In this document: positions 1-55,626 of the stretch, in pieces
How positions within the stretch are numbered: the first letter of the stretch is position 1
How the letters are laid out: each line of letters opens with the position of its first letter
Assembly (NCBI RefSeq): GCF_001894785.1
Contig: NZ_BCWW01000002.1
Span: forward strand, 1-64,000
DNA: 64,000 nt
Source of the DNA: Rhodococcoides fascians NBRC 12155 = LMG 3623
GTDB taxonomy: Bacteria > Actinomycetota > Actinomycetes > Mycobacteriales > Mycobacteriaceae
Reading direction: 5' to 3'
The notes under the pieces: generated by a model
Databases searched by the model: none
What the model saw: only the letters and a program-made list of their open reading frames with translations
Told to the model about the DNA's origin: nothing
Translations under genes and position numbers: made by a program

Positions 1-36
1 AACACGACCCCTGCTACGAAGTTCCACTCACATAGG
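1..36. repeat. Right half of an intergenic palindromic repeat (copy A)
   Basis: The stretch from about base 5 to base 36 matches the right arm and loop of the palindromes at 30031-30076 and 55570-55613: a loop reading CGACCCCTGCTACGA, then an arm ending in AAGTTCCACTCAC. The flank CTCACATAGG is also found beside the copies at 5681 and 15641. The partner arm would lie left of the window edge, so this copy cannot be shown to be a complete hairpin. Confidence 0.75.
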
Positions 37-108
37 TTGGTCTGCGTGACGGCACCAGTTGGGGCCGCGTTCACCATTCGTTAGCCGCGACTGAGCACAG
101 TCCTCGCG

Positions 109-1041
109 GTGAGTGCAACAACCGAACGAGTGCTGCCCACGGCAGGCAAGAAGAGCTTCTTCTCGCGGCCGTGGACCGATTACGCACTGTTCCTGATTCT
201 CGTGGGACCCAACCTGGTTCTGTTGGCGGTCTTCACGTACCGCCCGTTGGTGGAGAACTTCCAGTTCTCGTTCTTCGACTGGAACCTGTCCTCGCCCACG
301 TCCACGTTCGTCGGATTCGAGAACTACCGCGAGTGGGCCGCCCGTGACGACACGTGGCAGATAGTCGGCAACACTGTCGTGTTCACCGTGGCCGCCGTCG
401 TCGGCTCGCTGGTGCTCGGTCTGATACTTGCGCTGCTGCTCGATCGTAAACTGCGGGGCCGCAACTTCGTTCGCTCCGCAGTGTTCGCGCCGTACGTGAT
501 CTCCGGTGCCGCGATCGGTATCGCATTCCAGTTCGTCTTCGATCCCAACTTCGGACTCGTCCAGGACCTGATGCGCAGATTCGGCCTCGGTGCGGTCCCG
601 GATTTCTATCAGGATCCGAAATGGGCGATGGTCATGATCACCGTCACCTACTTGTGGAAGAACCTGGGCTACACCTTCGTCATCTATCTCGCGGCGCTGC
701 AGGGTGTGCGCAAGGAATTGATGGAAGCGGCCGAGATCGACCAGGCCGGCCGCTGGACCACGTTCCGCAAAGTGCTTCTGCCGCAACTGCGTCCGACGAC
801 GTTCTTCCTCTCGATCACGGTGTTGCTCAACTCCCTTCAGGTCTTCGACATCATCAATGTCATGACGCGCGGTGGCCCACTGGGCACCGGAACCACCACG
901 ATGGTCTACCAGGTCTACGAGGAAACGTTCCGCAACTTCCGGGCCGGCTACGGGGCGACCGTCGCGACCATCCTGTTCCTCGTGCTGTTGATCGTCACTC
1001 TCGTACAGGTACGAATCATGGATCGGGACGATCAGCGATGA
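109..1041 (+). CDS. ugpA: ABC transporter permease, UgpA/MalF type
   Basis: Inner-membrane permease of a CUT1-class importer, 310 residues. By eye there are about six membrane spans, the first near residues 24-44. The cytoplasmic EAA loop that docks on the ATPase is clear at about residues 206-224 (EAAEIDQAGRW followed by a leucine-proline end). The start is a GTG at 109; no strong ribosome site precedes it, so the start is less certain than the frame. It overlaps ugpE by ATGA (1038-1041). The order permease, permease, binding protein, ATPase is that of mycobacterial ugpAEBC. In mycobacteria this system imports glycerophosphodiesters such as glycerophosphocholine, so the same substrate class is inferred here. 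Confidence 0.9.
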   Translation: MSATTERVLPTAGKKSFFSRPWTDYALFLILVGPNLVLLAVFTYRPLVENFQFSFFDWNLSSPTSTFVGFENYREWAARDDTWQIVGNTVVFTVAAVVGSLVLGLILALLLDRKLRGRNFVRSAVFAPYVISGAAIGIAFQFVFDPNFGLVQDLMRRFGLGAVPDFYQDPKWAMVMITVTYLWKNLGYTFVIYLAALQGVRKELMEAAEIDQAGRWTTFRKVLLPQLRPTTFFLSITVLLNSLQVFDIINVMTRGGPLGTGTTTMVYQVYEETFRNFRAGYGATVATILFLVLLIVTLVQVRIMDRDDQR

Positions 1042-1928
1042 CCTTGGTGAGCAAGCCCGATGCTGCAGTCCCGGAAAAGCCTTCGCTCGGTCGGGACCCG
1101 CAGCGCACGCGTCGCAGCGCGAATGTCCTCGGCTACGCGGCGATGGTTGCCGTCCTGCTGATGATCGGCCTGCCGCTGTTCTGGATTCTGGTCACCTCGT
1201 TCAAGGACCGCCCGGACATCTACGTTCAGCCGGTCACGTGGTGGCCCAGCAGTTTTCATCCGCAGAACTACAACGAGGCGACGACGGAGGTGCCGTTCTT
1301 CACGTACCTGCGCAACTCGATCGTCATCACCACGGCGGTCGCGTCGATCAAGTTCGTCCTCGGTGTGCTCAGTGCGTACGGCCTGGTGTTCCTGCGCTTT
1401 CCGGGCAAGAACATCGTCTTCCTCGTCATCATTGCCGCGCTGATGGTGCCCAACCAGATCACCGTCATCTCCAACTACTCGCTCATCTCCGAGCTCGGTT
1501 GGCGAAATTCGTTTCAGGGCATCATCATTCCGCTGGCAGGCGTTGCATTCGGTACCTTCCTGATGCGTAACCACTTCCTGTCGCTGCCACCGGAGATCAT
1601 CGAGGCCGCGCGCATGGACGGCGCGGGCCCGGTGCGGTTGATGTTCCGCGTCATCCTGCCGCTGTCGGGTCCGACGATGGTGGCGTTCGCGATCATCACC
1701 ATCGTCACCGAATGGAACGAATACCTCTGGCCGTTCCTGATGTCCGACGACTCGTCGGTTGCTCCGCTCCCGGTCGGCCTGACGCTGCTCCAGAACAGCG
1801 AGGGCTACACCAACTGGGGAGCGGTCATGGCCGCGACAGTGCTCACCATTCTGCCGATTCTTCTCGTCTTCCTCGTCCTGCAGCGCCACATGATCAAGGG
1901 CCTCACCTCCGGTGCGGTCAAGGGCTGA
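1038..1928 (+). CDS. ugpE: ABC transporter permease, UgpE/MalG type
   Basis: Second permease of the importer, 296 residues with about six membrane spans. The EAA loop is at about residues 189-208 (EAARMDGAG) and the C-terminus reads LTSGAVKG, typical of MalG-like proteins. The ATG at 1038 overlaps the ugpA stop by four bases, implying translational coupling. An in-frame reading upstream of 1038 is antisense-like arginine/proline-rich sequence inside ugpA and is not accepted as an N-terminus. It should pair with UgpA to form the channel and bind UgpC. Confidence 0.92.
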   Translation: MTLVSKPDAAVPEKPSLGRDPQRTRRSANVLGYAAMVAVLLMIGLPLFWILVTSFKDRPDIYVQPVTWWPSSFHPQNYNEATTEVPFFTYLRNSIVITTAVASIKFVLGVLSAYGLVFLRFPGKNIVFLVIIAALMVPNQITVISNYSLISELGWRNSFQGIIIPLAGVAFGTFLMRNHFLSLPPEIIEAARMDGAGPVRLMFRVILPLSGPTMVAFAIITIVTEWNEYLWPFLMSDDSSVAPLPVGLTLLQNSEGYTNWGAVMAATVLTILPILLVFLVLQRHMIKGLTSGAVKG

Positions 1929-1956
1929 TCCACCTCACTATCAGGAGTCGAACACC

Positions 1957-3282
1957 ATGGCACACATCATCAATCGGCGTGGCTTCCTCACGCTCACCGG
2001 TGCGGCTGCGGCCGCTGCAGCCCTCGCGGCGTGCAGCGGTCCCGGATCGGGATCGTCCGGCGGCGGCGGCGTCGAAGGCGATGCGAACACCATCAACTTC
2101 TGGTCGAACCACCCGGGCAAGTCCCAGGAATTCGAGAAGGAGCTGATCTCGCGGTTCCAGGCGCAGAACCCCGGACTGACGGTCAATCTCATCGACGGCG
2201 GCAAGAACTACGAGGAGGTGTCGCAGAAGTTCAATGCGGCATTGTCCGGCAACGATGTGCCCGACGTAGTCGTACTCTCGGATGTCTGGTGGTTCAACTA
2301 CGCACTGACCGGGGCGATCGAGCCCCTCGACAAGCACTTCTCTGCGGCCGGGGTCGACCAGTCCGATTACGTGGATTCGCTGCTGGCCGACTACAACTGG
2401 AACGGGAGCCACTGGGCTCTGCCGTACGCTCGCTCCACTCCGCTGTTCTACTACAACAAGGCCGTCTGGTCGGCAGCCGGCCTGCCCGATCGCGGACCGG
2501 CCACGTGGCAGGAATTCGACGAGTGGGGCCCGCGCATCCAGGCCGTCGTCGGAAACGGCAAGCTCGCCCACGGCTGGGGCAATGCCGTCGACTATCTCGG
2601 GTGGACGTTCGAGGGACCGATCTGGACCTTCGGCGGATCGTACTCCGATCAGTTCGAGCTGAAGTTCGACGACCCCAATACCATTGCGGCAGGCAAGTTC
2701 CTGCAGGACATGATCCACACCAAGAAGTACGCGGCGGTCTCCAACGACATCGCCAACGACTTCGCCGCGGGCATCCTCGCATCCACGATCGCCTCCACCG
2801 GAGACCTGTCCACCATCACCAAGGGTGCCGCGTTCGAGTTCGGTACGGCCTTCCTGCCGGCCACCGACGGCGCGCCCGGATGCCCCACCGGCGGCGCGGG
2901 TCTGGCCATCCCGGCCAAGATCTCCGACGAGCGCAAGGTGAACGCACTCAAGTTCATCGATTTCGTGACCAACGGTGCCAACACTGCGTACTTCTCGCAG
3001 AACACCGGGTACATGCCGGTCCGCAAGTCGGCGCAGCAGGACCCGTCGGAAATCGCGTTCCTCGAGGCCAACCCGAACGCGAAGACGGCCGTCGACCAGT
3101 TGGCGCGTACCCGCTCCCAGGACGCTGCCCGCGTGTTCGTGCCCGGCGGCGACAAGATCATCGGTAGCGGTCTCGAGCAGATCGCTCTGCAGAATGCAGA
3201 CGTCGCAACGACATTCGCGTCCGTCTCGGATCAATTACAACAGATCATCGACCGCCAGATCACCCCGAAGCTGCCGAAGTAA
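1957..3282 (+). CDS. ugpB: Extracellular substrate-binding lipoprotein, UgpB family
   Basis: Binding lipoprotein of 441 residues. The N-terminus carries an NRR twin-arginine-like stretch (residues 6-8), an alanine-rich hydrophobic segment and a lipobox LAAC with Cys26, so it is probably exported and lipid-anchored. Stretches recalled from M. tuberculosis UgpB are present, such as DYVDSLLADYNWNG, YARSTPLFYYNKA and CPTGGAGLAIPAK, which makes orthology likely. The start at 1957 is supported by TCAGGAG at 1941-1947. The stop overlaps the ugpC start by one base (TAATG). Substrate specificity is inferred from the mycobacterial protein (glycerophosphodiesters). Confidence 0.92.
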   Translation: MAHIINRRGFLTLTGAAAAAAALAACSGPGSGSSGGGGVEGDANTINFWSNHPGKSQEFEKELISRFQAQNPGLTVNLIDGGKNYEEVSQKFNAALSGNDVPDVVVLSDVWWFNYALTGAIEPLDKHFSAAGVDQSDYVDSLLADYNWNGSHWALPYARSTPLFYYNKAVWSAAGLPDRGPATWQEFDEWGPRIQAVVGNGKLAHGWGNAVDYLGWTFEGPIWTFGGSYSDQFELKFDDPNTIAAGKFLQDMIHTKKYAAVSNDIANDFAAGILASTIASTGDLSTITKGAAFEFGTAFLPATDGAPGCPTGGAGLAIPAKISDERKVNALKFIDFVTNGANTAYFSQNTGYMPVRKSAQQDPSEIAFLEANPNAKTAVDQLARTRSQDAARVFVPGGDKIIGSGLEQIALQNADVATTFASVSDQLQQIIDRQITPKLPK

Positions 3283-4364
3283 TGGCGACCGTTCACTATG
3301 CGGGTGTCTCGCACAGGTACCCGGGCGCGGACTCTCTCGCCGTCGACACGCTCGAACTCGACATAGCGGACGGCGAGTTCATCGTGCTGGTGGGACCGTC
3401 CGGATGTGGAAAGTCGACGAGTCTGCGGATGCTGGCCGGCCTCGAATCCGTCGAGAGCGGCCACATCGACATCGGCGGAGTGGACGTCACCTCGCTCGCC
3501 CCACGGGCGAGGGACGTCGCGATGGTGTTCCAGAACTACGCGCTGTACCCCAACATGACCGTCGGCGACAACATGGGCTTCGCATTGCGAAACGCGGGAA
3601 TGAGCAAGGCCGACACTGCGGCTCGCGTACTGGACGCCGCGAGGATGCTCGAACTCGAGCCGCTGCTGGGTCGCAAGCCCGGCAAGCTCTCCGGTGGGCA
3701 GCGGCAGCGAGTGGCCATGGGGCGAGCCATCGTTCGTCAACCCAAGGTGTTCTGCATGGACGAGCCGCTGTCCAACCTCGACGCCAAATTGCGAGTGTCG
3801 ACGAGGGCCCAGATCGCCGGACTGCAGAAGCGATTGGGTACCACCACCGTGTACGTCACCCATGATCAGGTCGAGGCGATGACGATGGGTGACCGGGTTG
3901 CGGTGTTGCGGGACGGCAAGTTACAGCAGATCGCCGCTCCGCGGGAGCTGTACGACAACCCCGTCAACACCTTCGTCGCCGGGTTCATCGGGTCTCCCGG
4001 CATGAACCTCGTCGACGCTCCCGTGCACGAGGGCGCTGCGGTCCTCGGAGACGTTCGGATCCCTGTTCCGTCGTCGGCGGGCCACCGCGTCGTCGTCGGG
4101 GTTCGGCCGGAATCGTGGGAGCTCGTCGGCGAACATGCGGGCGGACTCCGACTCACCGTCGAATTGATCGAGGAATTGGGTGCGGAGTCGTTCGTGTACG
4201 CCTCGGCACCCAACGCCGACGGTCAGTGGACGACGCCCTCTGGACGTATCTCGGTGAGGGTGGACCGCAAGCTGTCGGTCGCCCTCGCCGAGACCGTCCG
4301 GTTGAAGCCGGTGCTCGACGAACTGTTCTTCTTCGACGCCGCTACCGGCCTGCGGTTGTCCTGA
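3282..4364 (+). CDS. ugpC: ABC transporter ATPase, UgpC/MsiK family
   Basis: Cytoplasmic ATPase of 360 residues. Walker A GPSGCGKST is at 38-46, the Q-loop at about 84, the signature LSGGQRQRV at 136-144, Walker B ending CMDEP at 158-162 and the switch histidine at His194. The C-terminal third is the regulatory OB/TOBE region of CUT1 ATPases. Members of this family, such as MsiK, can energise several sugar importers, which matters because the importer at 57663-60849 has no ATPase gene. Its last 23 bases overlap the 3' end of the convergent P450 gene. Confidence 0.93.
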   Translation: MATVHYAGVSHRYPGADSLAVDTLELDIADGEFIVLVGPSGCGKSTSLRMLAGLESVESGHIDIGGVDVTSLAPRARDVAMVFQNYALYPNMTVGDNMGFALRNAGMSKADTAARVLDAARMLELEPLLGRKPGKLSGGQRQRVAMGRAIVRQPKVFCMDEPLSNLDAKLRVSTRAQIAGLQKRLGTTTVYVTHDQVEAMTMGDRVAVLRDGKLQQIAAPRELYDNPVNTFVAGFIGSPGMNLVDAPVHEGAAVLGDVRIPVPSSAGHRVVVGVRPESWELVGEHAGGLRLTVELIEELGAESFVYASAPNADGQWTTPSGRISVRVDRKLSVALAETVRLKPVLDELFFFDAATGLRLS

Positions 4365-5652
4365 CGGGTTCGCCCAGATCCACCGGAAGTGTTGCCCACC
4401 CGTGCAATACGCGCGTGTCGCGACGGGTTCCCTCGCCTGCAGAACGTAGGTGGGGGAACCTGTCGAACAACGTCTTCAGACCCACCTCCGACTCTGCCTT
4501 CGCCAGCGCTGCGCCCAGGCAGTAGTGGCGTCCGCCGGAGAACGACAGGTGCTTACCCGCGTTGTCGCGGGTGACGTCGAACCGGTCGGGGTCCTCGAAT
4601 ACCAGCGGATCGCGGTTGGCACCGGCCAGCACGAGGACGACCAGTGAGTCCTTCGTGATCGGCACACCCTCCACGACGACGTCGTGCTTGGCCGCCCGAG
4701 CCGTCAGCTGAACGGGAGATTCCATCCGCAACATCTCGTCGATCGCGGTGGGCCAGTGCGATGGATCCTGTTGCAGTACAGCCAGTTGATCCGGATGATC
4801 GAGCAGGAGTCGGATGCCGCTGCCGAGCAGATTGACGGTTGTCTCGAACCCGGCCGCCAATACCAATCCTGCTGTGGCCCTGAGCTCTTCGTCGTTCAGG
4901 CCGATGCCCTCGTCCTCGGCGGCGATCAGTTGGCTCATCAGGTCGTCGCCGGGGTTGCGGCGAAGTTCGGCGATGTGCTGCGAGAGCCACGCGTCGAAAC
5001 CGATGAGGCCACGCTCCACCTGCTTGAACTGGCTCCACGAGATACCGATGTCGAGGCTGGGTGCCGCCATTTCGCCGAATTCGAGGACGCGCTGATTGTC
5101 CTTCTCCGGAACGCCGAGGATGCGGCCGATGACTGCGACGGGAAGGCGAGCGCAGTATCGGTCGACGATGTCGACGACAGGGCTGCCGTCGGTCAGTTCG
5201 TCGAGTAGCGCGTCCGCGGTTTCCTGCACCTGATCTCGCATCTGCGCGACCGCCCGGGCGGTGAAGACCGAGGACACCAGCTTGCGGTAGCGGGTGTGAT
5301 CGGGTGGCTCGACCGACAGCAGGGACGGCGGAAGGATCGGATGCAGGGCACCGGAGCGGGTGTGGCGTTCCACCCACTTCAGCGGTGCCGGCAGCGTGCC
5401 GCCCAGCTGGGTGACCCGAAAATCGTCGGAGCGCAGCAGCGCGAACGCCACCCGGTGATGCACGGTGATGTTGGAGATTCGGGTCTTCACCAGCGGTGCC
5501 GTCGCCCGCAGTTCCTCGTACACCGGCGTCGGATTTGCCCGTGTCGCCGGATCGGCGACCAGCATGGCCTGCCGGTCACCGGCGGCCGCAGCACGCTTGG
5601 CCCCGAACCTGATGACCCCGTGTGCCGCGATCCACCGTACGAATTCCCTCAT
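4342..5652 (-). CDS. Cytochrome P450
   Basis: Soluble bacterial P450 of 436 residues. The I-helix oxygen-binding motif AGFETT is at 267-272, the K-helix ExxR is E306-R309, and the haem loop FSGGRHYCLG is at 371-380 with Cys378 as the haem thiolate. The start at 5652 is chosen because GGGAGGA precedes it by about eight bases; a longer frame begins at 5718 but lies within the palindromic repeat. No ferredoxin or reductase gene is adjacent, so the redox partner must come from elsewhere. Substrate is unknown. The 3' end overlaps ugpC tail-to-tail by 23 bp. Confidence 0.93.
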   Translation of the reverse strand: MREFVRWIAAHGVIRFGAKRAAAAGDRQAMLVADPATRANPTPVYEELRATAPLVKTRISNITVHHRVAFALLRSDDFRVTQLGGTLPAPLKWVERHTRSGALHPILPPSLLSVEPPDHTRYRKLVSSVFTARAVAQMRDQVQETADALLDELTDGSPVVDIVDRYCARLPVAVIGRILGVPEKDNQRVLEFGEMAAPSLDIGISWSQFKQVERGLIGFDAWLSQHIAELRRNPGDDLMSQLIAAEDEGIGLNDEELRATAGLVLAAGFETTVNLLGSGIRLLLDHPDQLAVLQQDPSHWPTAIDEMLRMESPVQLTARAAKHDVVVEGVPITKDSLVVLVLAGANRDPLVFEDPDRFDVTRDNAGKHLSFSGGRHYCLGAALAKAESEVGLKTLFDRFPHLRSAGEGTRRDTRVLHGWATLPVDLGEPVRTTAGR

Positions 5653-5680
5653 CCGACTGTCCTCCCCGTTGTCCCGCCCT

Positions 5681-5725
5681 ATGTGAGTGGTTTCTCGTAG
5701 CAGACTACGAAGTTCCACTCACGTG
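5681..5725. repeat. Intergenic palindromic repeat (copy B)
   Basis: Left arm 5681-5700 (ATGTGAGTGGTTTCTCGTAG) faces a right arm at 5705-5724. GTGAGTGG and TCGTAG pair perfectly and are separated by a four-base mismatch. The loop is CAGA, the complement of the TCTG loop in copy C. The element starts one base after the zmp1 stop codon on the minus strand, so it could serve as a terminator for zmp1 and separates it from the P450 gene. Confidence 0.8.
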
Positions 5726-7684
5726 CTACCAGATCTTGACGCGCTTCCCCGGGTCCAAGTACAGCGCATCACCGGGCTGTACGTCGAACGCTTCGTGAAA
5801 ACTGTCCAGATTGCGCACGACTCCGTTGCACCGGAACTCCGGCGGTGAGTGCGGATCGACGGCGAGGCGGCGAAGTGCTTCGGCGTCTCGTGCCTTGGTG
5901 CGCCACACCTGCGACCAGCCGAAGAACACGCGCTGCAACCCGGTCAGGCCGTCGAGCACCGGTGCGTCCTTGCCCTCGAGCGAGATTTCGTATGCGGCGA
6001 CGGCGATGGACAGGCCACCCAGATCGCCGATGTTCTCACCGATGGTGAATTCGCCGTTGACCTTGTGGCCGGGCAGTGCCTTCGGCTCGAATTCGTTGTA
6101 CTGCTCGATCAGGGCTGTGGTGCGCTTACCGAATTCGGTGCGGTCGCTGTCGGTCCACCAATCCACCATGTTGCCGTCGCCGTCGTACTTGGCACCCTGG
6201 TCGTCGAATCCGTGCCCGATCTCGTGACCGATGACGGCTCCGATCCCGCCGTAGTTGGCTGCGTCGTCGGCCTCGGCGTCGAAGAACGGCGGCTGCAGAA
6301 TGGCTGCGGGAAAGACGATTTCGTTCATCCCGGGGTTGTAGTACGCGTTGACGGTCTGCGGCGTCATGAACCATTCGTCGCGATCGACCGGACCGCCGAG
6401 CTTGTCGAGATCACGCTGATAGTCGGCCTCGTAACCGCGGCGGTAGTTGCCGAGCAGATCGTCGGCGGCGATGACGACGCTCGAGTAGTCGCGCCAGCGG
6501 TCGGGGTAGCCGATCTTGGGAGTGAACTTGTCCAGCTTGTCCAAGGCCTTGCGGCGCGTCTCCGGGCTCATCCATTCGAGCTCGGAGATGTTGCGGCGGT
6601 AGGCCTCGGCGAGGTTGTCGACGAGCACCTGCATGCGTGCCTTCGAGTCCGCCGGGAAGTGGCGTTCGACGTAGAGCTTGCCGACGGCCTCGCCGAGGAC
6701 GTCCTGTACGAGCGAGACGCCGCGCTTCCAGCGCTCGCGGTTCTCCTCGGTTCCGGTCAGCGTCGTTCCGTAGAACGCGAAGTTCTCGTCGACGAGTGCG
6801 CTGGTCAGGAACGGAGCCCGGGCATGGACGACGCGCCACGCGAGCCACGCCTTCCACGTCTCGATGTCCTCCGACGTCCACAGGGACACGAACGTGTTGA
6901 CGAACGGTGGCTGGCGCACGACGATCTCGGCGAACTGTTCGGTGGTGCCGCCGAGGCCGGAAATCCATGCGGTCCAATTGAATCCGGGCTCGTTCTGCAC
7001 CAGAGTGTCGAACTGGACGAGGTTGTAGCTCTTCTCGGCGTCGCGCCGGGCGACGACGTCCCAGTGGCCCGCGGCGATCTTTCGCTCGAGATCGAACACC
7101 GTCTGCGCGTCGTACTCGACGCCGCTGAGCGCGAACATCTTCGCGATGTGCGCGATGTAGCTCGTGCGGATGTCGGCGTATTCGTCCTGACGGTAGTACG
7201 ACTCGTCGGGCAAGCCGATTCCCGACTGGCTGAAGTGCACCAGGTAGCGGTCGGATCGCTTGGCGTCGGTGTCGACGTAGTGAGCGATACCGCCGCCGAC
7301 TCCGGTGCGTTGCAGAGAACCGAGAACGCCTGCGAGCGTGACCAAGTCGGTCGCATCGGCAACCGCGGCGAGCTCGTCGGCGATCGGGGTGGTGCCGAGC
7401 TGTTCGGCCCGGTCGGCGTCCATGAAGCTCGAGAACAGGTCGCCGATCTTCTGTGCGTCGCTACCGGCGGGCGGATTCGCGGCCGCCGATTCTTCGATGA
7501 TGGTCTGTACGTCGACCTCGGCGCGGTCGTACAACGTCCGGAACGCACCGTCGACGGCGCGGTCGGCGGGAATGCTGTAGTCCTCCAGCCATTTGCCGTT
7601 GACGTGCACGAAGAGGTCGTCCTGCGCGCGTGTGTTCTCGTCCTGGTAGCTGAGATCGATGCCCGAGTTCACTACTGAAGTCAT
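5726..7684 (-). CDS. zmp1: M13-family zinc metallopeptidase, Zmp1/PepO type
   Basis: Zinc endopeptidase of 652 residues, close to the roughly 660 of mycobacterial Zmp1. The zinc site HEIGH is at 487-491, and the third ligand is E550 in ENIGDLGG. The substrate-binding NAYYNPGMNE and the C-terminal YLDPGKRVKIW are typical of neprilysin-like enzymes. There is no signal peptide or N-terminal membrane anchor, as in Zmp1, which leaves cells by an unclear route. The N-terminus (SGIDLSYQDENTRAQDDLF) aligns from memory with Zmp1, supporting the start. It is divergent from the TetR-ABC operon with only 54 bp between start codons. Mycobacterial Zmp1 affects host inflammasome responses; no such role is claimed here. 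Confidence 0.94.
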   Translation of the reverse strand: MTSVVNSGIDLSYQDENTRAQDDLFVHVNGKWLEDYSIPADRAVDGAFRTLYDRAEVDVQTIIEESAAANPPAGSDAQKIGDLFSSFMDADRAEQLGTTPIADELAAVADATDLVTLAGVLGSLQRTGVGGGIAHYVDTDAKRSDRYLVHFSQSGIGLPDESYYRQDEYADIRTSYIAHIAKMFALSGVEYDAQTVFDLERKIAAGHWDVVARRDAEKSYNLVQFDTLVQNEPGFNWTAWISGLGGTTEQFAEIVVRQPPFVNTFVSLWTSEDIETWKAWLAWRVVHARAPFLTSALVDENFAFYGTTLTGTEENRERWKRGVSLVQDVLGEAVGKLYVERHFPADSKARMQVLVDNLAEAYRRNISELEWMSPETRRKALDKLDKFTPKIGYPDRWRDYSSVVIAADDLLGNYRRGYEADYQRDLDKLGGPVDRDEWFMTPQTVNAYYNPGMNEIVFPAAILQPPFFDAEADDAANYGGIGAVIGHEIGHGFDDQGAKYDGDGNMVDWWTDSDRTEFGKRTTALIEQYNEFEPKALPGHKVNGEFTIGENIGDLGGLSIAVAAYEISLEGKDAPVLDGLTGLQRVFFGWSQVWRTKARDAEALRRLAVDPHSPPEFRCNGVVRNLDSFHEAFDVQPGDALYLDPGKRVKIW

Positions 7685-7702
7685 GTATCCATCTTTACAC
7701 TC

Positions 7703-7729: not shown

Positions 7730-7738
7730 GTGCTGTAC

Positions 7739-10799: not shown

Positions 10800-10815
10800 A
10801 TGAGTCGGCCGCGAC

Positions 10816-14675: not shown

Positions 14676-15632
14676 ATGGCCAGGGATCTGACACAGCTCG
14701 AGCTTCTGCAGGAGCTGGTGCCCACTGCCGAGGACAATGTGAACCGTCATATTTCGATGGCGCGCGAATGGCATCCCCACGACTACGTGCCGTGGGACGA
14801 AGGCCGCAACTTCGCCGCGCTCGGCGGCACGGACTACGACCCGGAGCAGTCCAAGCTCTCCGACGTCGCGCAGGCCGCGATGATCACCAACCTGCTCACC
14901 GAGGACAATCTGCCGTCCTACCACCGTGAGATCGCCGAGAACTTCTCCCAGGACGGTGCCTGGGGAACCTGGGTCGGCCGGTGGACCGCCGAGGAGAACC
15001 GCCACGGCATCGTCATGCGCGACTACCTCGTCGTCACCCGCGGTGTCGATCCCGTCGCCCTCGAAGAAGCCCGCATGATTCACATGACCAACGGGTACGC
15101 GTCGCCCGCCGGCGCAGGGGTCGGTCTGTTGCACTCGGTCGCGTACGTGACGTTCCAGGAACTGGCGACCCGCGTCTCGCACCGCAACACCGGCAAGGTC
15201 TGTGACGACCCGATCGCCGACCGCATGCTCCAGCGCATCGCCGCCGACGAGAACCTGCACATGATCTTCTACCGCAACATCACCGGCGCAGCGATGGACA
15301 TCTCGCCGGATCAGACGTTGCAGGCCGTCTCGGACATCGTGACGAACTTCGTCATGCCCGGTGCCGGCATGCCGAACTTCCGCCGCAACGGTGTGTTGAT
15401 GGCCAAGCACGGCATCTACGACCTGCGTCAGCACCTCGAAGACGTCGTCTGGCCCGTGCTGCGCAAATGGCAGGTCTTCGAGCGCAACGACTTCACCGCA
15501 CGCGGTGAGAACAAGCGTGAAGAACTCGCCGCGTTCCTCGAAGACCTCGAACGTCAGGCCACCAAGTTCGAGGAGATGCGAGATCGCTCGCTGGCCCGCG
15601 AACGGGCCAAGGCCGAGGCGCGCGCGTCCTGA
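14676..15632 (+). CDS. Acyl-ACP desaturase, DesA family
   Basis: Soluble di-iron desaturase of 318 residues. Iron ligands are visible as E76 (EDN), E107-x-x-H110 (EENRH), E162 and E192-x-x-H195 (DENLH). The sequence resembles mycobacterial DesA1/DesA2, which introduce double bases into long-chain acyl-ACP, including mycolic-acid precursors. GAGGAGG lies just before the ATG. The stop is followed after eight bases by a perfect palindrome (copy C). Confidence 0.92.
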   Translation: MARDLTQLELLQELVPTAEDNVNRHISMAREWHPHDYVPWDEGRNFAALGGTDYDPEQSKLSDVAQAAMITNLLTEDNLPSYHREIAENFSQDGAWGTWVGRWTAEENRHGIVMRDYLVVTRGVDPVALEEARMIHMTNGYASPAGAGVGLLHSVAYVTFQELATRVSHRNTGKVCDDPIADRMLQRIAADENLHMIFYRNITGAAMDISPDQTLQAVSDIVTNFVMPGAGMPNFRRNGVLMAKHGIYDLRQHLEDVVWPVLRKWQVFERNDFTARGENKREELAAFLEDLERQATKFEEMRDRSLARERAKAEARAS

Positions 15633-15640
15633 GGTGACCC

Positions 15641-15684
15641 ATGTGAGCGGAACTTCGTAGTCTGCTACGAAGTTCCGCTCACAT
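15641..15684. repeat. Intergenic palindromic repeat (copy C), perfect 20-bp stem
   Basis: The left arm ATGTGAGCGGAACTTCGTAG (15641-15660) is the exact reverse complement of 15665-15684, with loop TCTG. It lies eight bases after the desaturase stop and ten before the next start codon. Arms and loop are shared with copies A, B, D and E. No T-run follows. Confidence 0.9.
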
Positions 15685-22316: not shown

Positions 22317-22328
22317 CGTCTCCCGCAT

Positions 22329-22380
22329 GCGTGCATGGACCATTCACGAGCCCAGACGGGTGTGAATGGTCCATTCACGC
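22329..22380. terminator. Palindrome between convergent SDR genes
   Basis: GCGTGCATGGACCATTCAC (22329-22347) and GTGAATGGTCCATTCACGC (22362-22380) pair in 18 of 19 positions around a 14-base loop. The right arm is itself a palindrome (GTGAATGG-T-CCATTCAC), so two alternative folds exist. It lies between two stop codons (22316 and 22402) and is a good candidate for a bidirectional terminator without T-run. Confidence 0.65.
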
Positions 22381-22401
22381 AGAGCGCGGAGCGCACAGCG
22401 A

Positions 22402-28650: not shown

Positions 28651-30051
28651 GTGGCTCTCGTTGCCGGAATCGACTCTTCCACCCAATCGTGCAAGGTTTT
28701 CGTTCGCGATGCCGACACCGGGGAGTTGGTGCGTCACGGCCGTGCCGGTCATCCCGACGGCACCGAGATCGACCCGCAGCGGTGGAAAGAAGCACTCGAC
28801 GAGGCCGTCGACGCCGCCGGCGGGCTGGACGATGTCGCTGCGGTGTCGGTCGGCGCGCAACAACACGGCATGGTCTGCCTCGACGACAACGGATCCGTGG
28901 TCCGTAAAGCATTGCTGTGGAACGACACTCGATCGGCCCAGGCGGCAGAGGATCTGATCGCGGAGCTCGGCGAGAAGACCGGTGGCGACGGCGGTCAGGC
29001 CTGGGCCGACGCGGTCGGCGTGGTTCCGTTGGCCTCGATCACCGTCGCCAAGCTGCGGTGGCTCGCCGACAACGAGCCCGACAACGCCGATCGCACTGCG
29101 GCGGTGTGCCTTCCGCACGATTGGATCGGCTGGCAGCTCGGTGGCGCGTCGGGGCTCGACGCCTTGGCCACCGATCGCGGCGATGCGAGCGGCACCGGAT
29201 ACTTCTCGGCGGCCACGAACGAGTATCGAACGGATCTGTTGCAGTTGGGCTTTCGTGGCCGCAACCCACTGCTGCCCCGCGTGGCTGCGCCGAATGAGGC
29301 GATAGGCCACACTGCCGCCGGGGCGCTGATCGGCCCGGGTACCGGAGACAATGCCGCGGCGGCGCTTGCCCTCGACGCACAGCCCGGTGATGTGGTGGTC
29401 TCGATAGGCACGTCCGGCGTCGTCTCGGCGGTGACCACCGCAGCCGCGGCCGACGGTTCGGGCCTGGTCGCCGGATTCGCCGACGCCACCGGGCGTCAGC
29501 TGCCGTTGGTGTGCACGCTCAACGCGGCTCGCGTCCTCGATGCGACGGCGCGAATGCTGGGCGTCGATCACGACGAGTTGTCGCGGTTGGCTCTGTCGAC
29601 GACGAGCGACGGTGTGGTGATGGTGCCGTACTTCGAGGGCGAGCGGACGCCCAATCTCCCCGATGCGTCCGGTGCGATTCATGGACTACGACTGAACAAT
29701 TCGACTCCGGGCCACCTGGCTCGCGCTGCCGTCGAAGGACTGCTGTGCGGACTGGCCGACGGTATCGACTACCTGCGTGCACAGGGAGTGGACGTGCAGC
29801 GAGTACTGCTCATCGGCGGCGGTGCGAAGTCCGCGGCGCTCCGAGCCTTGGCCCCGGCAATTCTCGGGGTGCCGGTGGCCGTACCCGAGCCCGGTGAATA
29901 CGTCGCCGACGGGGCAGCGCGCCAGGCAGCATGGACTTTGGCCGGGACCAGTGAACCGCCGACCTGGGCGCAGGCCACCTCGAAGACATACGAGGCAGAC
30001 CCCACGCCGGCGGTGCGAGAGCGCTACGCGCATGTGAGTGGAAACTCGTAG
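28651..30051 (+). CDS. xylB: Xylulokinase
   Basis: FGGY-family sugar kinase of 466 residues. The N-terminal ATPase core starts [10 protein letters not shown] (6-15); [10 protein letters not shown] and LLWNDTRS are the sugar-site blocks of xylulokinases; GTSGV and [12 protein letters not shown] form the second nucleotide domain. It makes xylulose 5-phosphate for the pentose phosphate pathway. No xylose isomerase is nearby. The GTG start has AAAGGA 11 bases upstream. The last seven residues and the TAG stop are encoded inside palindromic repeat copy D, so the native tail may have been replaced by the repeat. Confidence 0.92.
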
Positions 30052-30076
30052 CAGGGGTCGAGTTTCCACGCACATG
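30031..30076. repeat. Intergenic palindromic repeat (copy D) overlapping the xylB stop
   Basis: CATGTGAGTGGAAACTCG (30031-30048) pairs with 30059-30076 in 17 of 18 positions. The loop, read on the minus strand, extends the CGACCCCTGCTACGA motif shared with copies A and E. A second hairpin, GCGGC-GCA-GCCGC (30076-30088), abuts it and ends at the stop codon of the convergent gene. The xylB TAG is at 30049-30051. Confidence 0.85.
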
Positions 30077-42201: not shown

Positions 42202-42212
42202 CCGGACCGGCT

Positions 42213-44802: not shown

Positions 44803-44845
44803 ACGCAACATCGGATTGCGTCTTGTGCTGGAGGGGTTCGTCGAT

Positions 44846-47822: not shown

Positions 47823-47829
47823 AGTCCGA

Positions 47830-49098: not shown

Positions 49099-50024
49099 CA
49101 GTGCACCGCAAGCTCGTCTGCCAGCACGGCCCGGCCGGCGGCAACGATTGCGGTGAGTTCCTCGAGGTGCGGTGCGCTGATGTCCACCAGGGGTGGGCGA
49201 ACCGGCCCTGCTTCGATGCCCTCCATCGTCACGCCGGCCTTGATGAGGGAGACGGCGTAGCCGGGAACCTTGTCGCGCAAGCGCACGAGCGGGTGGAAGA
49301 ACTCGCGGAGCAATGCGGCAGTGAGCTTTTCGTTTCCGCTGTCGAGAGAGCGGTAGAACGCCAGTGCCAGTTCGGGTGCGAACGCGAATGTCGCGGAGGA
49401 GTACAGCGTGACACCGATCGCTCGGTACGCCTGCTGGGAGACCTCGGCGGTCGGTAGTCCGTTGAAGAACTGGAAGGGCTTGCCCGACGGCTCCAGAGCG
49501 TCCAGTACCGCGCGGACGATGCGGCCGACCTGGTCGAGATCGCCGGTGCCATCCTTGAATCCGACGACCGTGGGAAGCTGCGCAACCTCGACGGCGGACT
49601 CCTCGGTGAAGCGAGCGTTGCCGCGGTTGTAGACGATCAGCGGCAGATCCGATGCGGCGGCAACGGCCTTGGTGTAGTTGACGAGACCGGCTTGCGGCAT
49701 CGTCACCAGGTACGGCGGCAGCAACAGGATGCCGTCGGCTCCGTTGGCCTTCGCCGCGTGTGCGAATGCCTTTGCCTGCGCGACGGATCCGCCTGCACCG
49801 GCGTAGACAGGAACGCGGCCTGCGACGCTGTCGACTGCGGCACGGACGATCTTGCCGAACTCCTCGAGTTCGAGGGCGTGGAATTCGCCGGTGCCGCAGG
49901 CAATGAACACTCCACCGGGTCCCGCGTCGACACCCTTCGTGATGTGAGCGGCCAGGAGGTCGTAATCGACCTCACCGGATGCGGTGAACGGGGTGACGGG
50001 GAAGAACAGAACTCCGTCGAGCAT
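49098..50024 (-). CDS. kdgD: 5-dehydro-4-deoxyglucarate dehydratase
   Basis: DapA/NanA-fold enzyme of 308 residues. Schiff-base Lys157 is in VVGFKDGTGD and the partner Tyr132 in IVYNRGN. It dehydrates and decarboxylates 5-dehydro-4-deoxyglucarate to 2,5-dioxopentanoate, the common step after glucarate and galactarate dehydratases. GGAG precedes the ATG. It sits between the aldehyde dehydrogenase (31 bp) and the dehydratase (one-base overlap), which supports the assignment. Confidence 0.92.
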   Translation of the reverse strand: MLDGVLFFPVTPFTASGEVDYDLLAAHITKGVDAGPGGVFIACGTGEFHALELEEFGKIVRAAVDSVAGRVPVYAGAGGSVAQAKAFAHAAKANGADGILLLPPYLVTMPQAGLVNYTKAVAAASDLPLIVYNRGNARFTEESAVEVAQLPTVVGFKDGTGDLDQVGRIVRAVLDALEPSGKPFQFFNGLPTAEVSQQAYRAIGVTLYSSATFAFAPELALAFYRSLDSGNEKLTAALLREFFHPLVRLRDKVPGYAVSLIKAGVTMEGIEAGPVRPPLVDISAPHLEELTAIVAAGRAVLADELAVH

Positions 50025-50055
50025 GGGGGTCTCCTCGAGAACTAGGTGGGGTGTG

Positions 50056-51654
50056 TCAGTCTTGGGTGAGCTGGCCGTCGATGCGGCGGAAGATGCCGTC
50101 CGGATTTCCGTCTGCGATGGCGTTGGGCAACAACGATTTCGGTACGTCCTGGTACGCGACCGGGCGCAGGAAGCGTTCGATCGCGAGCGATCCGACCGAC
50201 GTGGTGCGGGAGTCCGAGGTCGCGGGGAACGGCCCGCCGTGCACCATGGCATGGCCGACCTCGACTCCGGTGGGCCATCCGTCGAACAGGATCCGGCCGG
50301 CCTTGAGTTCGAGCACCGAGAGCAGCTTTCCGGCCTCGGAATGATCGGATTCGTCGGCATGAATGGTGGCGGTGAGCTGACCTTCGAGCTGTGCCGCCAC
50401 CTGCCGAACCTGCTGGGAATCTGCACAGCGCACGACGAGGCTCGACGCGCCGAACACCTCGGCCTGCGCTGCCTCCGAGGTGAGGAACGTGTCCGCATCG
50501 GTGTCGAACAGCGCTGCGCGGCACGCATTCGGGGCGTCGGTGTCGGATCCCCGCGCTACCACCGTCACCGCGTCGGACAGTGTTCGCACACCCTCGGCGT
50601 AGCTCGAGGCGATGTTCGGCGTCAGCATCGTGGAGGGAGCGGATTCTTGCACGGCGGCGGCAGCGGCGTCGATGAACGACTGCAAGCCCGGGCCGTCGAC
50701 GGCAATGACCAGACCGGGGTTGGTGCAGAACTGACCCGAGCCCATCGTCAGCGATGCGACGAACGCGCGGCCCAATTCGGCTCCACGGGTGGCGAGTGCA
50801 CCGTCCATGACGAACACCGGATTGATGGAACTCATCTCGGCGTACACCGGGATGGGCTCACGGCGACCCGCCGCCGCGGCGACGAGAGCTGTTCCACCCG
50901 AACGCGATCCGGTGAATCCGACGGCCTTGATGCGAGGGTCGGTCACCAGAGCGGTGCCGAGTCCGCGACCGGAGCCGAAGAGCAACGAGAATGTGCCGGA
51001 GGGCATTCCGGTGGAGACAACCGCGTCGGTGATGGCGCGGGCGACCAGCTCGGACGTTCCTGGATGGGCGTCGTGTGCCTTGACGATCACCGGGCAGCCG
51101 GCAGCGAGGGCGGACGCGGTGTCGCCGCCTGCGACGGAGAAGGCGAGGGGGAAGTTGCTGGCACCGAACACGGCAACCGGCCCGAGGGGGATCTTGCGCT
51201 GGCGGATGTCCGCCCGCGGCAGCGGGCTGCGCTCGGGCTGGGCCGGATCGATGCGGGCTCCGTTCCAACTGCCCTCGCGCAGAACCGAAGCGAACAGACG
51301 GAGTTGACCGGTGGTGCGGCCGACCTCGCCGGTGATGCGTGCCAGCGGCAGACCGGACTCGGCGACCGTACGCTCGATGAGCGTGTCGCCCAGGGCCGCG
51401 ATGTTGTCGGCGATGGTCTCGAGAAACCGTGCGCGAGTGTCCGACGAGGTAGCGCGGTAGTCGGCGAAGGCGTCGGCCGCTGCGGCACAGGCCCGCTCGA
51501 CATCCGAGTCGTCGCCGTGGCCGTAAGCGGGTTCGAGATTCTCTCCGGTACCGGGATCGATTCCGTGAATCTGCGTCCCGGCACCGAAAACCGGAACGCC
51601 GGCGATGATCATCCGACCGGTGAGGTCGGTGGACTGTGTCGTCGACGCTGTCAT
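50056..51654 (-). CDS. Aldehyde dehydrogenase, 2,5-dioxovalerate (ketoglutarate semialdehyde) type
   Basis: NAD(P)-dependent dehydrogenase of 532 residues. Catalytic Cys310 (GQFCTNPG), general base Glu273 ([10 protein letters not shown]) and Asn167 (ASNFPLAF) are present. [20 protein letters not shown] is typical of the ketoglutarate-semialdehyde subgroup. It would oxidise 2,5-dioxopentanoate to 2-oxoglutarate, ending the aldarate pathway. TAGGAGT precedes the ATG at 51654. It is divergent from gudD over a 288-bp control region. Confidence 0.92.
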
Positions 51655-51773
51655 GGGGTGACTCCTAAGGCTGTGGTGCGGTACGTGCAGTGACGCCGAG
51701 GCCGTGACCTGGCTCATAACTCACCACGGTAGGAGCTGGATCGATACATGTCCAAGTCTAAAAATGTTGTGTT

Positions 51774-51849
51774 TGATGCAGTCTCGGTATCGCCTGGCTG
51801 ACCGTCTACTCGAGCGTGGATGCCGATCCTCGATACCTCGACTGCATCA
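51774..51849. promoter_or_regulatory. 19-bp inverted repeat in the divergent control region
   Basis: TGATGCAGTCTCGGTATCG (51774-51792) and the reverse complement of 51831-51849 agree at 17 of 19 positions; 38 bases separate the arms. It lies between the divergent aldehyde dehydrogenase and gudD genes, just upstream of the gudD promoter. Two copies of a regulator site bound face to face is the simplest reading. A smaller dyad GCATC-AGTC-GATGC (51844-51857) overlaps the right arm. Confidence 0.6.
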
Positions 51850-51867
51850 GTCGATGCGCAGATGGTG

Positions 51868-51898
51868 TTGGACGGGAATCGATAGCTGGCCCTACTGT
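51868..51898 (+). promoter_or_regulatory. Candidate gudD promoter
   Basis: -35 TTGGAC (51868-51873) and -10 TACTGT (51893-51898) with a 19-base spacer. The start codon is 45 bases past the -10. Confidence 0.45.
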
Positions 51899-51942
51899 CG
51901 TCTGTGAGCCGAATCACCAGAGGTATGCGAGAAAGGTCGGGC

Positions 51943-53289
51943 ATGGTCGTCCACACCAGCACCCCCGTCGTCGCCGAAATGCGTGTCATTCCCATTGCCG
52001 GTCACGACGACATGTTGCTGAACCTCAGCGGCGCGCACGCGCCGTATTTCACCCGCAATCTGGTGGTGCTCACCGACTCGGACGGGCGCACCGGCGTCGG
52101 CGAAGTGCCGGGCGGGGAGCCGATTCGGCAGACGCTCGAAGACGCGCGCGTGCTGGTCGAGGGGCAGAACATCGGCCGGTACAACGCGGTGCTGGCCGCC
52201 ATGCGTCGCGCGTTCGCAGATCGTGATGCCGGTGGCCGCGGCGCGCAGACGTTCGATCTGCGGATCGCCATTCATGCGGTAACGGCAGTGGAATCGGCGT
52301 TGTTGGATCTGCTCGGTCAGCATCTCGGCGTCAGCGTCGCGGCGTTGCTGGGCGAAGGACAGCAGCGCGAGAAGGTGCAGGCGCTGGGCTACCTGTTCTT
52401 CGTCGCCGATCGCAACAAGACCGATCTCGCATACCGGAGCAGCGCCGACGAGGCGGCCGGAGCCGACGACTGGCTGCGGATCAGGCACGAGGAGGCGATG
52501 GATCCGGAGTCGATCGTGCGCCTCGCCGAGGCTGCGCAGGCACGCTACGGCTTCCAAGATTTCAAGCTCAAGGGTGGTGCACTGCCGGCAGCCGAGGAGG
52601 CCGCCGCTGTTCGTGCTCTGGCCGAGCGCTTTCCCGAGGCGCGAATCACGTTGGATCCCAACGGCGGCTGGTTGCTGAAGGATGCGATCGAGACCTGCCG
52701 AGGGCTGCGTGACGTGCTGGCGTACGCCGAGGATCCCGTCGGCCCCGAGGGTGGTTTCTCGGGCCGCGAGGTGATGACGGAGTTCAAGCGGGCCACCGGG
52801 TTACAGACCGCGACCAACATGATCGCGACGGACTGGCGCGAGATGGGCCACACCGTCCGGTCCGGTGCCGTGGACATCCCGCTGGCCGATCCACACTTCT
52901 GGACGATGGCCGGGTCCGTGCGCGTCGCGCAGCTCTGCGACGCGTGGGGCTTGACGTGGGGATCGCACTCCAACAACCACTTCGACGTCTCCCTGGCGAT
53001 GTTCACGCACGTCGCTGCTGCAGCTCCCGGGAACATCACCGCCATCGACACCCACTGGATCTGGCAGGACGGGCAGCGAGTGACCAAGGAGCCGTTCACG
53101 ATCGAGGATGGCTACCTCACGGTGCCCGACAAGCCGGGTCTGGGTGTCGAACTCGACTTCGAGCAGATCGATGCGGCGCACGAGCTGTACCAGAAGGAAG
53201 GACTGGGTGCCCGAGACGACGCCATCGGCATGCAGTACCTGATCGAGGGCTGGACATTCGACAGCAAGCGCCCGGCCCTCGTTCGATGA
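51943..53289 (+). CDS. gudD: Glucarate dehydratase
   Basis: Enolase-superfamily enzyme of 448 residues, near the 446 of E. coli Gud[18 protein letters not shown] and [18 protein letters not shown] are characteristic. With a constant offset of three from E. coli numbering, K208, K210, D238, N292 and H342 occupy the catalytic positions. It dehydrates glucarate to 5-dehydro-4-deoxyglucarate. Start at 51943 is preceded by AAAGG; a GTG at 51904 would lengthen it by 13 residues. It is coupled by ATGA to the next gene. Confidence 0.93.
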
Positions 53290-54272
53290 GTTCTGGTTCG
53301 AAAAGTTCTGGTGCGTCGATGAAGATCGTCGTCGGTGACCGCAACGTCGTGCCGCATCGCGAGCAGTTCGAGGCGGGTCTACCGGCGAACGCCGAGGTGG
53401 TGTGGAGCGTTCCCTTCGACGAGCAGGACGTGATCGCCCATCTCCACGACGCCGACGTCTATGTCGGCGGCAAGTTCAGTGCGGCCATGGGCGCGGCTGC
53501 CCCGAGGCTGCGGATGGTTCACGTTGCCGGCGCCGGTACCGACAACGTGGATCGATCCGGAATGCGGCCCGATGTGCAGGTGTGCAACACCTTTCACCAC
53601 GAGCAGTCGATTGCCGAATACGTCGTCGCGGCAACGGTGATGTTGCGACGAAAGTTCCTGGAGCAAGACCGCGCCCTCCGCTCGGGATTGTTTGCCACGT
53701 CCGTGTACGACCCGACCATCCCGCAGCCGTTGTCGCTGAGCGGTGCGCGGATCGGGTTCGTCGGGTTCGGACATATCGGCCGGCAGACCTGGCAGCTTTT
53801 TCGGGCATACGGGGCAACCGGTGCTGCCGTCACCGGGAGCGGTCGGGCTTCGGACGAGGGGCTCGAATGGGTTTCGGATGCAAAGGATTTGGGAAAGCTT
53901 GCCGAGTTCGCCGATGTACTCGTGGTTTCCGCACCGCTGAACGAGCACACCCGCGGCATGATCGGTGCCGAGGAACTGCGCAGGCTGGGAAGCGGAGGGA
54001 TAGTCGTCAACGTCGGTCGAGGCCCGCTGATTCAGGAACAACCACTGTTCGACGCTCTGTCTCGCAACGAGATTGCCGCCGCCGCCATCGATGTCTGGTA
54101 CAGCTACCCGGGGCCGGACGGGCGTGGTGAGCCCAGTTCCCTGCCGTTCCGCGAGCTGGAGAACGTGCTGATGACGCCGCACTCGTCGGGCGTCACGCAT
54201 CACACGTTCGTCGGCCGGGTCGCCGACATCGCGTCGAACATCAATGCACTTGCCGTATCGATGGCCCGCTGA
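53286..54272 (+). CDS. D-isomer-specific 2-hydroxyacid dehydrogenase
   Basis: Enzyme of 328 residues with Rossmann motif [16 protein letters not shown] in place of the usual VARG loop, and [11 protein letters not shown] holding the catalytic His. It should reduce or oxidise a 2-keto/2-hydroxy acid with NAD(P). Its place between two aldarate dehydratase genes suggests a sugar-acid intermediate as substrate, not proven. The ATG overlaps the gudD stop; a second ATG at 53319 is possible and would drop eleven polar residues. Confidence 0.85.
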
Positions 54273-54278
54273 ATTGTG

Positions 54279-54307
54279 TTGGACGCGTAAGGAACCCGAA
54301 TTAGGCT
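54279..54307 (+). promoter_or_regulatory. Candidate promoter of the talarate/galactarate dehydratase gene
   Basis: -35 TTGGAC (54279-54284) and -10 TAGGCT (54302-54307) with an optimal 17-base spacer, 37 bases upstream of the start. The GTGTTGGACG context is identical to that of the gudD promoter. Confidence 0.55.
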
Positions 54308-54344
54308 GTGAGGCAACGCCCTTCGCAAACACAGGAGATGTGAG

Positions 54345-55544
54345 ATGACAACGTACATCGACAAGCCCTCGAGCGGACTCACCGCGCCCGATGCGGCGAT
54401 TCGGGCCCTCGCATCCGGTGACGCGTCCGTCGACAGCATCTCCGAGGTGACGCTGTCCTCGATCGTGCTGCCGCTGCGCAATCCGATCAGCGACGCCAAG
54501 GTTCTCACCGGTCGACAGAAGGCGATGACCGAGGTGGTGTTTCTGTTCGTCGAGATCCGTACCGAACAGGGCCATGAGGGAATCGGTTTCAGCTATTCGA
54601 AGCGGGCGGGTGGGCCTGCCCAGTTCGCGCACGCCCAGGAGATCGCGCCGGTGCTCATCGGTGAGGACCCGAACGATATCGGCAAGGTCTGGACCAAGTT
54701 GGTGTGGGCCGGAGCGTCGGTCGGCCGCAGTGGCGTTGCGACACAGGCCATCGCTGCGATCGATATTGCCCTGTGGGATCTCAAAGCCAAGCGCGCCGGG
54801 TTACCGCTGGCGAAGCTGATCGGCGCGTCCCGCGATTCGGTGCAGACGTACAACACCTCCGGTGGATTTCTGCATACTCCGATCGAGGAGGTCATGGACA
54901 ACGCGGCCGGGTCGCTCGCGAACGGAATCGGCGGTATCAAACTGAAGGTGGGCCAACCTGATTGGCGCACCGACATCTCCCGCGTCACCGCGGTACGCGA
55001 GTTTCTCGGTGACGACGTCCCGCTGATGGTCGACGCGAATCAACAGTGGGATCGTCCGACGGCGAACCGCATGTGCCGCATCCTCGAGCAGTTCGACCTC
55101 GTCTGGATCGAAGAACCGCTCGATGCCTACGACGCCGAGGGGCATGCGATGCTGGCCAGGAATTTCGACACCTCCATTGCGACGGGGGAGATGCTGGCCA
55201 GCGTCGGCGAGCATGTCCGTCTCCTCGAGGCCGGCGCGGTCGACATCCTGCAGCCCGACGCACCCCGCATCGGCGGCATCACCCAGTTCCTGAAATTGGC
55301 CGGGCTGGCCGAACACCACAACGTGCAGCTCGCCCCGCACTTTGCGATGGAGATTCATCTGCACCTCGCAGCGGTGTACCCACTGCAGACCTGGGTGGAG
55401 CACTTCGACTGGTTGGACCCATTGTTCGACGAGCACCTCGAGACGCGGGACGGCCGGATGCACCTGTCCGCTCGCCCGGGGCTGGGATTCACATTGAGCG
55501 AGCAGGGCCGGGCCTGGACGGTGGCGAAGGCAGTGGTGCGCTGA
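54345..55544 (+). CDS. L-talarate/galactarate dehydratase-type enolase-superfamily enzyme
   Basis: Enzyme of 399 residues. Relative to the Salmonella talarate/galactarate dehydratase, a constant offset of four places K199, K201, D230, E256, E282 and H332 at the catalytic and metal positions. The active-site loop reads GFSYSKRAGG, as in that subgroup. It should give 5-dehydro-4-deoxyglucarate or its isomer from galactarate, feeding kdgD. AGGAG lies before the ATG. It has its own promoter 72 bp after the dehydrogenase gene. Confidence 0.88.
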   Translation: MTTYIDKPSSGLTAPDAAIRALASGDASVDSISEVTLSSIVLPLRNPISDAKVLTGRQKAMTEVVFLFVEIRTEQGHEGIGFSYSKRAGGPAQFAHAQEIAPVLIGEDPNDIGKVWTKLVWAGASVGRSGVATQAIAAIDIALWDLKAKRAGLPLAKLIGASRDSVQTYNTSGGFLHTPIEEVMDNAAGSLANGIGGIKLKVGQPDWRTDISRVTAVREFLGDDVPLMVDANQQWDRPTANRMCRILEQFDLVWIEEPLDAYDAEGHAMLARNFDTSIATGEMLASVGEHVRLLEAGAVDILQPDAPRIGGITQFLKLAGLAEHHNVQLAPHFAMEIHLHLAAVYPLQTWVEHFDWLDPLFDEHLETRDGRMHLSARPGLGFTLSEQGRAWTVAKAVVR

Positions 55545-55569
55545 CGTGGAGCCCAGACGTGGAGCGCTG

Positions 55570-55626
55570 ACGTGCGCGGAAACTCGACCCCTGCTACGAA
55601 GTTCCGCGCACGTGCCGCGAAGCGGC
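55570..55626. repeat. Intergenic palindromic repeat (copy E) with second hairpin
   Basis: ACGTGCGCGGAA (55570-55581) pairs perfectly with 55602-55613; the loop contains CGACCCCTGCTACGA as in copies A and D. GCCGC-GAA-GCGGC (55614-55626) follows directly, ending two bases before the IclR stop codon. It separates two convergent genes. Confidence 0.85.

Follow-up and report, generated by a model that had tools for sequence, protein, structure and literature searches.

The 64,000-nt window analysed here, positions 1 to 64,000 of contig NZ_BCWW01000002.1 of Rhodococcoides fascians NBRC 12155, contains five copies (A to E) of an intergenic palindrome that an initial annotation had read as a dispersed, REP-like (repetitive extragenic palindrome) family or a small mobile palindrome also serving as a terminator. 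All five lie where they had been annotated, to within 1–3 nt, and all are forms of one gapless 44-nt element made of a 20-nt arm, a 4-nt tip and a second 20-nt arm, with the consensus arm ATGTGAGTGGAACTTCGTAG. Copy A (1..33, minus strand) is only part of the element because the window begins inside the palindrome, at the first base of contig C2; its other side is the end of contig C22, with a 14-nt overlap. Copy B (5681..5724, plus strand), whose imperfect arms occupy 5681-5700 and 5705-5724, is flanked by two minus-strand genes, a peptidase M13 gene upstream and a P450 gene downstream, and lies 1 nt from the end of the M13 gene. Copy C (15641..15684, minus strand) has perfect 20-bp arms and the tip TCTG/CAGA and lies 8 nt past the end of a DesA-type fatty acid desaturase gene. 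Copies D (30032..30075, plus strand) and E (55570..55613, minus strand) each separate two convergent genes: an FGGY kinase (plus) and a PRISE-like gene (minus) for D, and an enolase-superfamily gene (plus) and an IclR-type regulator (minus) for E. The kinase reading frame terminates on a TAG within copy D, and D and E are followed by the mini-hairpins GCGGCGCAGCCGC and GCCGCGAAGCGGC, respectively. Gene calls here and below come from a codon-usage script rather than from an annotation.

The arm and loop texts first ascribed to these copies needed correction in detail: copy A reads CACGACCCCTGCTACGA, one mismatch from the loop given for it, the arm of E is GTGCGCGGAA and the left arm of B is GTGAGTGGTT. 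The short arm GTGAGYGGAA is no more frequent in the window than chance allows (102 found with up to 2 mismatches, 119 expected). Both loops do stand out, with 3 matches to CTCGACCCCTGCTACGA at up to 3 mismatches (0.35 expected; 1 of 100 shuffles as high) and 8 matches to TCGTAGN4CTACGA at up to 2 mismatches (1.85 expected; none of 100 shuffles as high), of which only B and C are exact.

A genome-wide search with a covariance model (R1) confirmed that the family extends well beyond the window, giving at least 110 hits, equivalent to at least 56 places, in the genome of the strain itself; 150 candidates were scored and 56 is a lower bound. Every one of these places was matched across model positions 1-44, and the half-site GTGAGTGGAANNTCG has 62 exact matches in the same genome, compared with none for a reversed control. 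Eight further copies are broken: one is split by an IS30-family insertion sequence (IS), four carry a nested repeat in an arm and three lie at contig breaks. One copy (C1:644291) falls inside a weak open reading frame call, and the others are intergenic or overlap a gene end. Across the 56 places, an average of 16.4 of the 20 arm positions form Watson-Crick pairs (lowest, 11; six copies perfect), and counting each tip with its reverse complement yields only four types: CAGG (32), CCCA (19), CAGA (4) and TCCA (1). We took these tallies from the 56 places rather than from the alignment behind R1, in which tip conservation is inflated because its rows, apart from copy B, were picked with the seed CGTAGCAG.

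The element is also predicted to fold well. Copies B to E, with flanks, fold at -23.9 to -43.3 kcal/mol, the strongest being copy C (-43.3 kcal/mol, z -10.2); shuffled sequences folded as well in 2 of 200 cases for E and in none for B, C and D. Two measures taken on the seeded alignment of 29 copies, the proportion of paired cells and the covariation score (0.138 versus 0.103 after shuffling; 0/500 as high), exceeded all 500 shuffles and every slid control, and paired changes are present at orthologous sites. Mini-hairpins of the kind seen beside D and E occur on 43 of 112 flanks (29 copies with one, 7 with two), compared with 5% of random places.

The copies follow a pattern in their position relative to genes. 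Leaving aside C1:644291, 55 own copies could be classified, and these comprise 34 between convergent genes, 21 between tandem genes and none between divergent genes. The chance of finding no divergent copy is 5e-8 if the window's share of divergent gaps (9 of 34 among gaps of at least 20 nt) is taken as the expectation, and 6e-19 by intergenic length. The copies do lie close to stop codons, 52 of the 55 within 20 nt of a predicted stop, with a median distance of 4 nt to the nearest gene 3' end. In 12 of the 55 the predicted stop falls within the element itself, reading ATG-TGA where it lies at the foot and TCG-TAG where it lies at the tip; the count is 12 rather than 13 since the predicted reading frame at C3:688589 runs through the element. 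Among 44 copies from relatives, 22 are convergent, 19 tandem, 2 divergent and 1 unclassified. This pattern of location, together with the predicted fold, argues for a role at transcript ends: the 44-nt palindromes sit at gene 3' ends, most often common to two convergent genes, and would form strong hairpins there. Their most likely function is to terminate transcription in both directions, or to form mRNA 3' ends, in the absence of a U-tract.

The family is concentrated in relatives within Rhodococcus/Rhodococcoides. R1 hits were found in at least 27 of 61 genomes, all of them in the strain's own genus (27 of 37, own genome included), and none in the 24 genomes from elsewhere in the order under a stricter filter. 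A family-wide draw of 151 genomes yielded at least 8 with hits, 5 from the own genus and 3 from two other genera. Both multi-genome scans were filtered more strictly than the own-genome scan and scored a capped number of candidates, so that these counts are minima. We read the host group as Rhodococcus/Rhodococcoides because the named relatives of the DesA gene beside copy C are strains of that group. Searches of plasmid and phage collections with copy C gave no match at E 0.01, and we found no paper on this family in Rhodococcus among titles and the beginnings of abstracts, a search that reached few subscription journals.

Although the 20-4-20 geometry is constant across the rows compared below, the arm sequence differs between genomes, giving what we call dialects. 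The arm GGAACTTCGTAG is found in the own and close genomes. Elsewhere the arms read GGAAATCCATAG, GGAAATACGTGG or GGAAATACATAG in G025 (three forms in four copies), GGAAATACGTCG and once GGAAATACGTTG in G030, GGAAATACATAG in G003, and GGAAATGCGCAC or GGAAATGCGTCC in G004; four identical copies in G085, which belongs to another genus, have GTGAAATTTCACCG. Of four copies read in G032, one is own-like and the other three have arms like ATACATAG or ATACACAG, and G020 has three different arm forms. G010 has the arm GCGCGAATGTACAG (the GCGAATG dialect), and GTGNGNGCGAATGNACAG matches 50 times there and not at all in 36 other genomes. These rows take in 25 of the 29 loci that matched R1 best in eight genomes and therefore lean towards own-like forms; three of the remaining four loci entered the context or orthology counts, and L401, of another length, entered neither. 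That many copies in one genome share a dialect, while relatives differ on the same geometry, points to copying or homogenisation within lineages. The conservation of letters, which folding alone would not account for, combined with dialects common to many copies in a genome, likewise argues for copying between sites.

Comparison with five syntenic relatives shows that occupancy of individual sites varies. An own-type palindrome is in place at site C in 1 of 4 comparable genomes, at site D in 4 of 5, and at site E in 1 of 2, plus G021 by position. Site C has the own type, with a paired change, in G024; G016 and G021 have there a palindrome of a second family (CAGTGGTGCGGTTA-type), and G035 has a 5-kb interruption (G013 is not comparable). 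Among named strains, others have own-type, disrupted or diverged forms at this site, and one has no palindrome. At site E the own type is present in G016, with other DNA in G024, and G035 and G013 are not comparable. We compared 30 genomes just past the site D kinase gene. Ten have an own-type palindrome, which is split by IS30 in one of them and bears a nested repeat in two; 3 have a different palindrome family, 3 have other dialects (one of these with a nested repeat), 1 has other sequence, and in 13 no palindrome is visible. The own genome's right-hand neighbour could be recognised in 12 of these genomes, own genome included, and the other 18 share the left gene only. Clearly different arms between the same genes on both sides were seen at four loci (G025/C8:77705, G030/site B, L409/C1:740765 and G011/C6:251877), and near own-type forms with like flanks were seen in G008 and G016. 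Site B has no palindrome in G024, G016 and G021 (3 of 3), the difference being about 40 nt with no target duplication visible between diverged flanks, and it has another dialect in the more distant G030. We considered a plain insertion at site B and withdrew it as to direction, since the G030 dialect there makes gain and loss indistinguishable. At site D, the tip reads CCCA versus TGGG when G016, G024 and G009 are set against G007 and G033, as if the centre of the palindrome were inverted between species.

No transposase had been noted near the window copies, and a scan of eight neighbouring genes found no transposase domain in those genes. Elsewhere in the genome, an IS30-family transposase lies inside a palindrome copy, at C1:1087534-1088798. 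This element encodes a 390-aa transposase that matches NF033563 at 298 bits (cut-off 80), and its ends, GGCGGATTCGAGC.../...GTGAACCCGTC, are imperfect terminal inverted repeats. In both the own genome and contig C58 of G013, ACG is present on each side, a 3-bp duplication; in G010, the only IS copy for which both flanks were read shows TAC and CAC. Within the close IS group, 19 of 22 junctions fall at the same point of the palindrome, after ...CTACG and before ACGA..TTCC (own genome 2/2, G013 contig C58 2/2, G024 1/1 and G033 14/14). All 14 IS fragments fetched from G033 (89-100% identity) end in a palindrome at this base, and their 7 left and 7 right ends correspond to 7 to 14 insertions. An IS relative in G010 (65-78% identity over matched segments) has the equivalent landing point in the GCGAATG dialect at 9 of 9 junctions, two of them in mirror orientation. 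A transposase fragment in G021 (75%) showed no IS end by pattern. Beyond these genomes, the IS matches 690 plasmid records, none over more than 80% of the query and several annotated as IS30 family transposase, and the transposase matches 6 loci in viral contigs at 41-51%.

A different hairpin, with GAATGGNCCATTC-type units, lies at 22328..22381 of the window (no strand assigned) and recurs at a similar location in five relatives. In other genomes such units lie next to a second IS30 subgroup (about 50-58% identity), in which a GAATGGNCCATTC-like unit (up to 3 mismatches) stands at a fixed distance from an end in 8 of 12 copies read and is lacking in 4; random 40-nt stretches reach this criterion in 0.6% of cases.

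Taken together, we consider it probable that this is a family of gene-end hairpins, likely two-way terminators or mRNA ends, that IS30-type elements use as landing pads. The IS30-family element inserts at a fixed point in the arm with a 3-bp target duplication, presumably recognising the palindrome through the DNA-binding part of its transposase; its cousin in the other-dialect genome acts likewise on that dialect. The hairpins would thus double as landing pads, perhaps at little cost to the host. We read IS30 as a user of the palindrome sites and not as their source. Several observations weigh against this interpretation. No U-tract follows the hairpin (T makes up 10% of the next 8 nt versus 18% of the window, and 3 of 112 flanks have four or more T), so the copies are not textbook terminators. 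Two of the five covariation measures in the seeded alignment do not exceed shuffles, namely pairs changed on both sides (262/500 as high) and pair types (110/500). Three of the 22 close-group junctions lie elsewhere, two in G009 and one in a degenerate copy in G013 contig C5, and the G003 IS is at the landing position in 1 of 2 junctions. In G035, G016, G011 and G012, all rich in palindromes, no IS30 match turned up; the family is therefore not maintained by the IS, and this is why we do not take IS30 for the source of the sites. Finally, dialects are mixed, as in G032 and G025, and the R1 hits listed for G010 are located elsewhere than its GCGAATG copies.

A bolder version holds that palindrome and IS30 co-diversify, each lineage homogenising its hairpins by an undescribed form of copying that does not involve a REP-associated tyrosine transposase (RAYT), and IS30 shifting its recognition to give matched pairs. 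We regard this as possible but doubtful, having lowered our estimate because dialects within genomes are not pure. The hairpins might instead be terminators that are inherited vertically and resemble one another through selection alone, with no dispersal. Occupied orthologous sites with paired changes fit such inheritance, as does a copy at C1:1136238 that is identical in G000, G021, G024, G035 and G012 with the same flanking genes. However, copies at non-orthologous places within a genome have long arms in common and carry one of only four tips, letters that selection on folding alone would not keep, and arm forms vary between genomes even at orthologous sites, which makes this explanation unlikely.

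Two further alternatives would make the palindrome itself mobile. The constant 44-nt length and the roughly 40-nt difference from three relatives at site B would suit a miniature inverted-repeat element (MITE), mobilised by an autonomous element whose terminal repeats are the two 20-nt arms. Yet several sites are common to different species, site B has no visible target duplication (its flanks having diverged), and ten of the 62 exact half-sites lie outside the 56 places, with their sole close pair flanking the IS30, which has different ends of its own. A parent element ending in these arms was sought among exact half-sites in the own genome, a pattern that variant arms escape, and none was found besides this IS30 inside a palindrome; we judge such an origin quite improbable. 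The REP-like label proposed at the outset describes the family well in that the copies are dispersed, extragenic, numerous and at gene ends, and GTAG is present in the arm. In classical REP systems the palindromes would be moved by an IS200/IS605-like tyrosine transposase, and a search for its domain, PF01797, found none in the own genome and one positive among 23 genus genomes (own included), whereas 5 of 14 control genomes have it. Moreover, GTAG lies at the arm tips (positions 17-20) and not at one foot. A RAYT-driven origin is very unlikely and, for present-day activity, largely refuted; these searches found no transposase for the palindrome itself.

Insertion sequences that target palindromes are known. 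In REP and bacterial interspersed mosaic elements (BIME), as described by Tobes and Pareja (2006; PMC1525189), extragenic palindromes often lying between convergent genes are similarly hit at one point by specific ISs. The families named there are IS3, IS110, IS4, IS256 and IS5, and its table gives IS1655 with 2/13 and 2/6 only. Here, in contrast, the IS belongs to the IS30 family and lands almost exclusively in the palindrome, and across the compared genomes the two vary together. REP targeting by IS families is known, and the near-exclusive IS30 lander with matching dialects is new. An IS30-family transposase is also described as selecting nearly palindromic hot spots (PMC9333248), although the targets here form a chromosomal repeat family with dozens of gene-end copies and the duplication is 3 bp, compared with the 2-bp spacing described for IS30. 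GTAG- and CGTC-tagged palindromic repeats (PMC3733652) are similarly short and of high copy number, the CGTC class being likewise described as lacking a dedicated transposase, whereas our element of 44 nt has no GTAG or CGTC at its foot; neither Rhodococcus, Mycobacterium, Nocardia nor Actinobacteria is mentioned in the main text of that article. The neisserial dRS3/NIME repeats (PMC3898611) are dispersed, have inverted ends and serve as integration sites for a mobile element, a filamentous phage, but dRS3 spans 20 bp and its inverted ends 6 bp, and both the phylum and the integrating element differ. If our interpretation is correct, matched IS30 transposase/palindrome pairs in several dialects would make IS target recognition testable by swapping, and the family would explain many of the gene 3' ends of this genome, along with some of its stop codons and several of its assembly breaks. 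It would also pose a puzzle, namely how hairpins at fixed gene-end positions change their arms without a RAYT.

Three contig pairs (C22/C2, C11/C23 and C1/C9) meet inside a palindrome and share a core CGN10CG (14, 14 and 13 nt); AACA precedes this core at the start of C2, C9 and C23, the right-hand contigs. Locus L329 of G024 reads CGTAGCCTG-AACA-CGTAGCCTGCTACG. The contig-break pattern may reflect another mobile element, missing from the assembly, that makes a 14-bp duplication, or else the scar of such an element. Rfam, at the gathering threshold, gave a sole match in the window, ASdes at 14994-15061 on the minus strand (72 bits, cut-off 40), inside the DesA-type gene. Finally, a small repeat, GGAGTGGAGCCTGCGGAACGACC or its reverse complement with slight variants, is nested in the palindrome arm of several copies, at L318, L319, L320 and L322 in the own genome, at site D in G013 and G012, and at L185.

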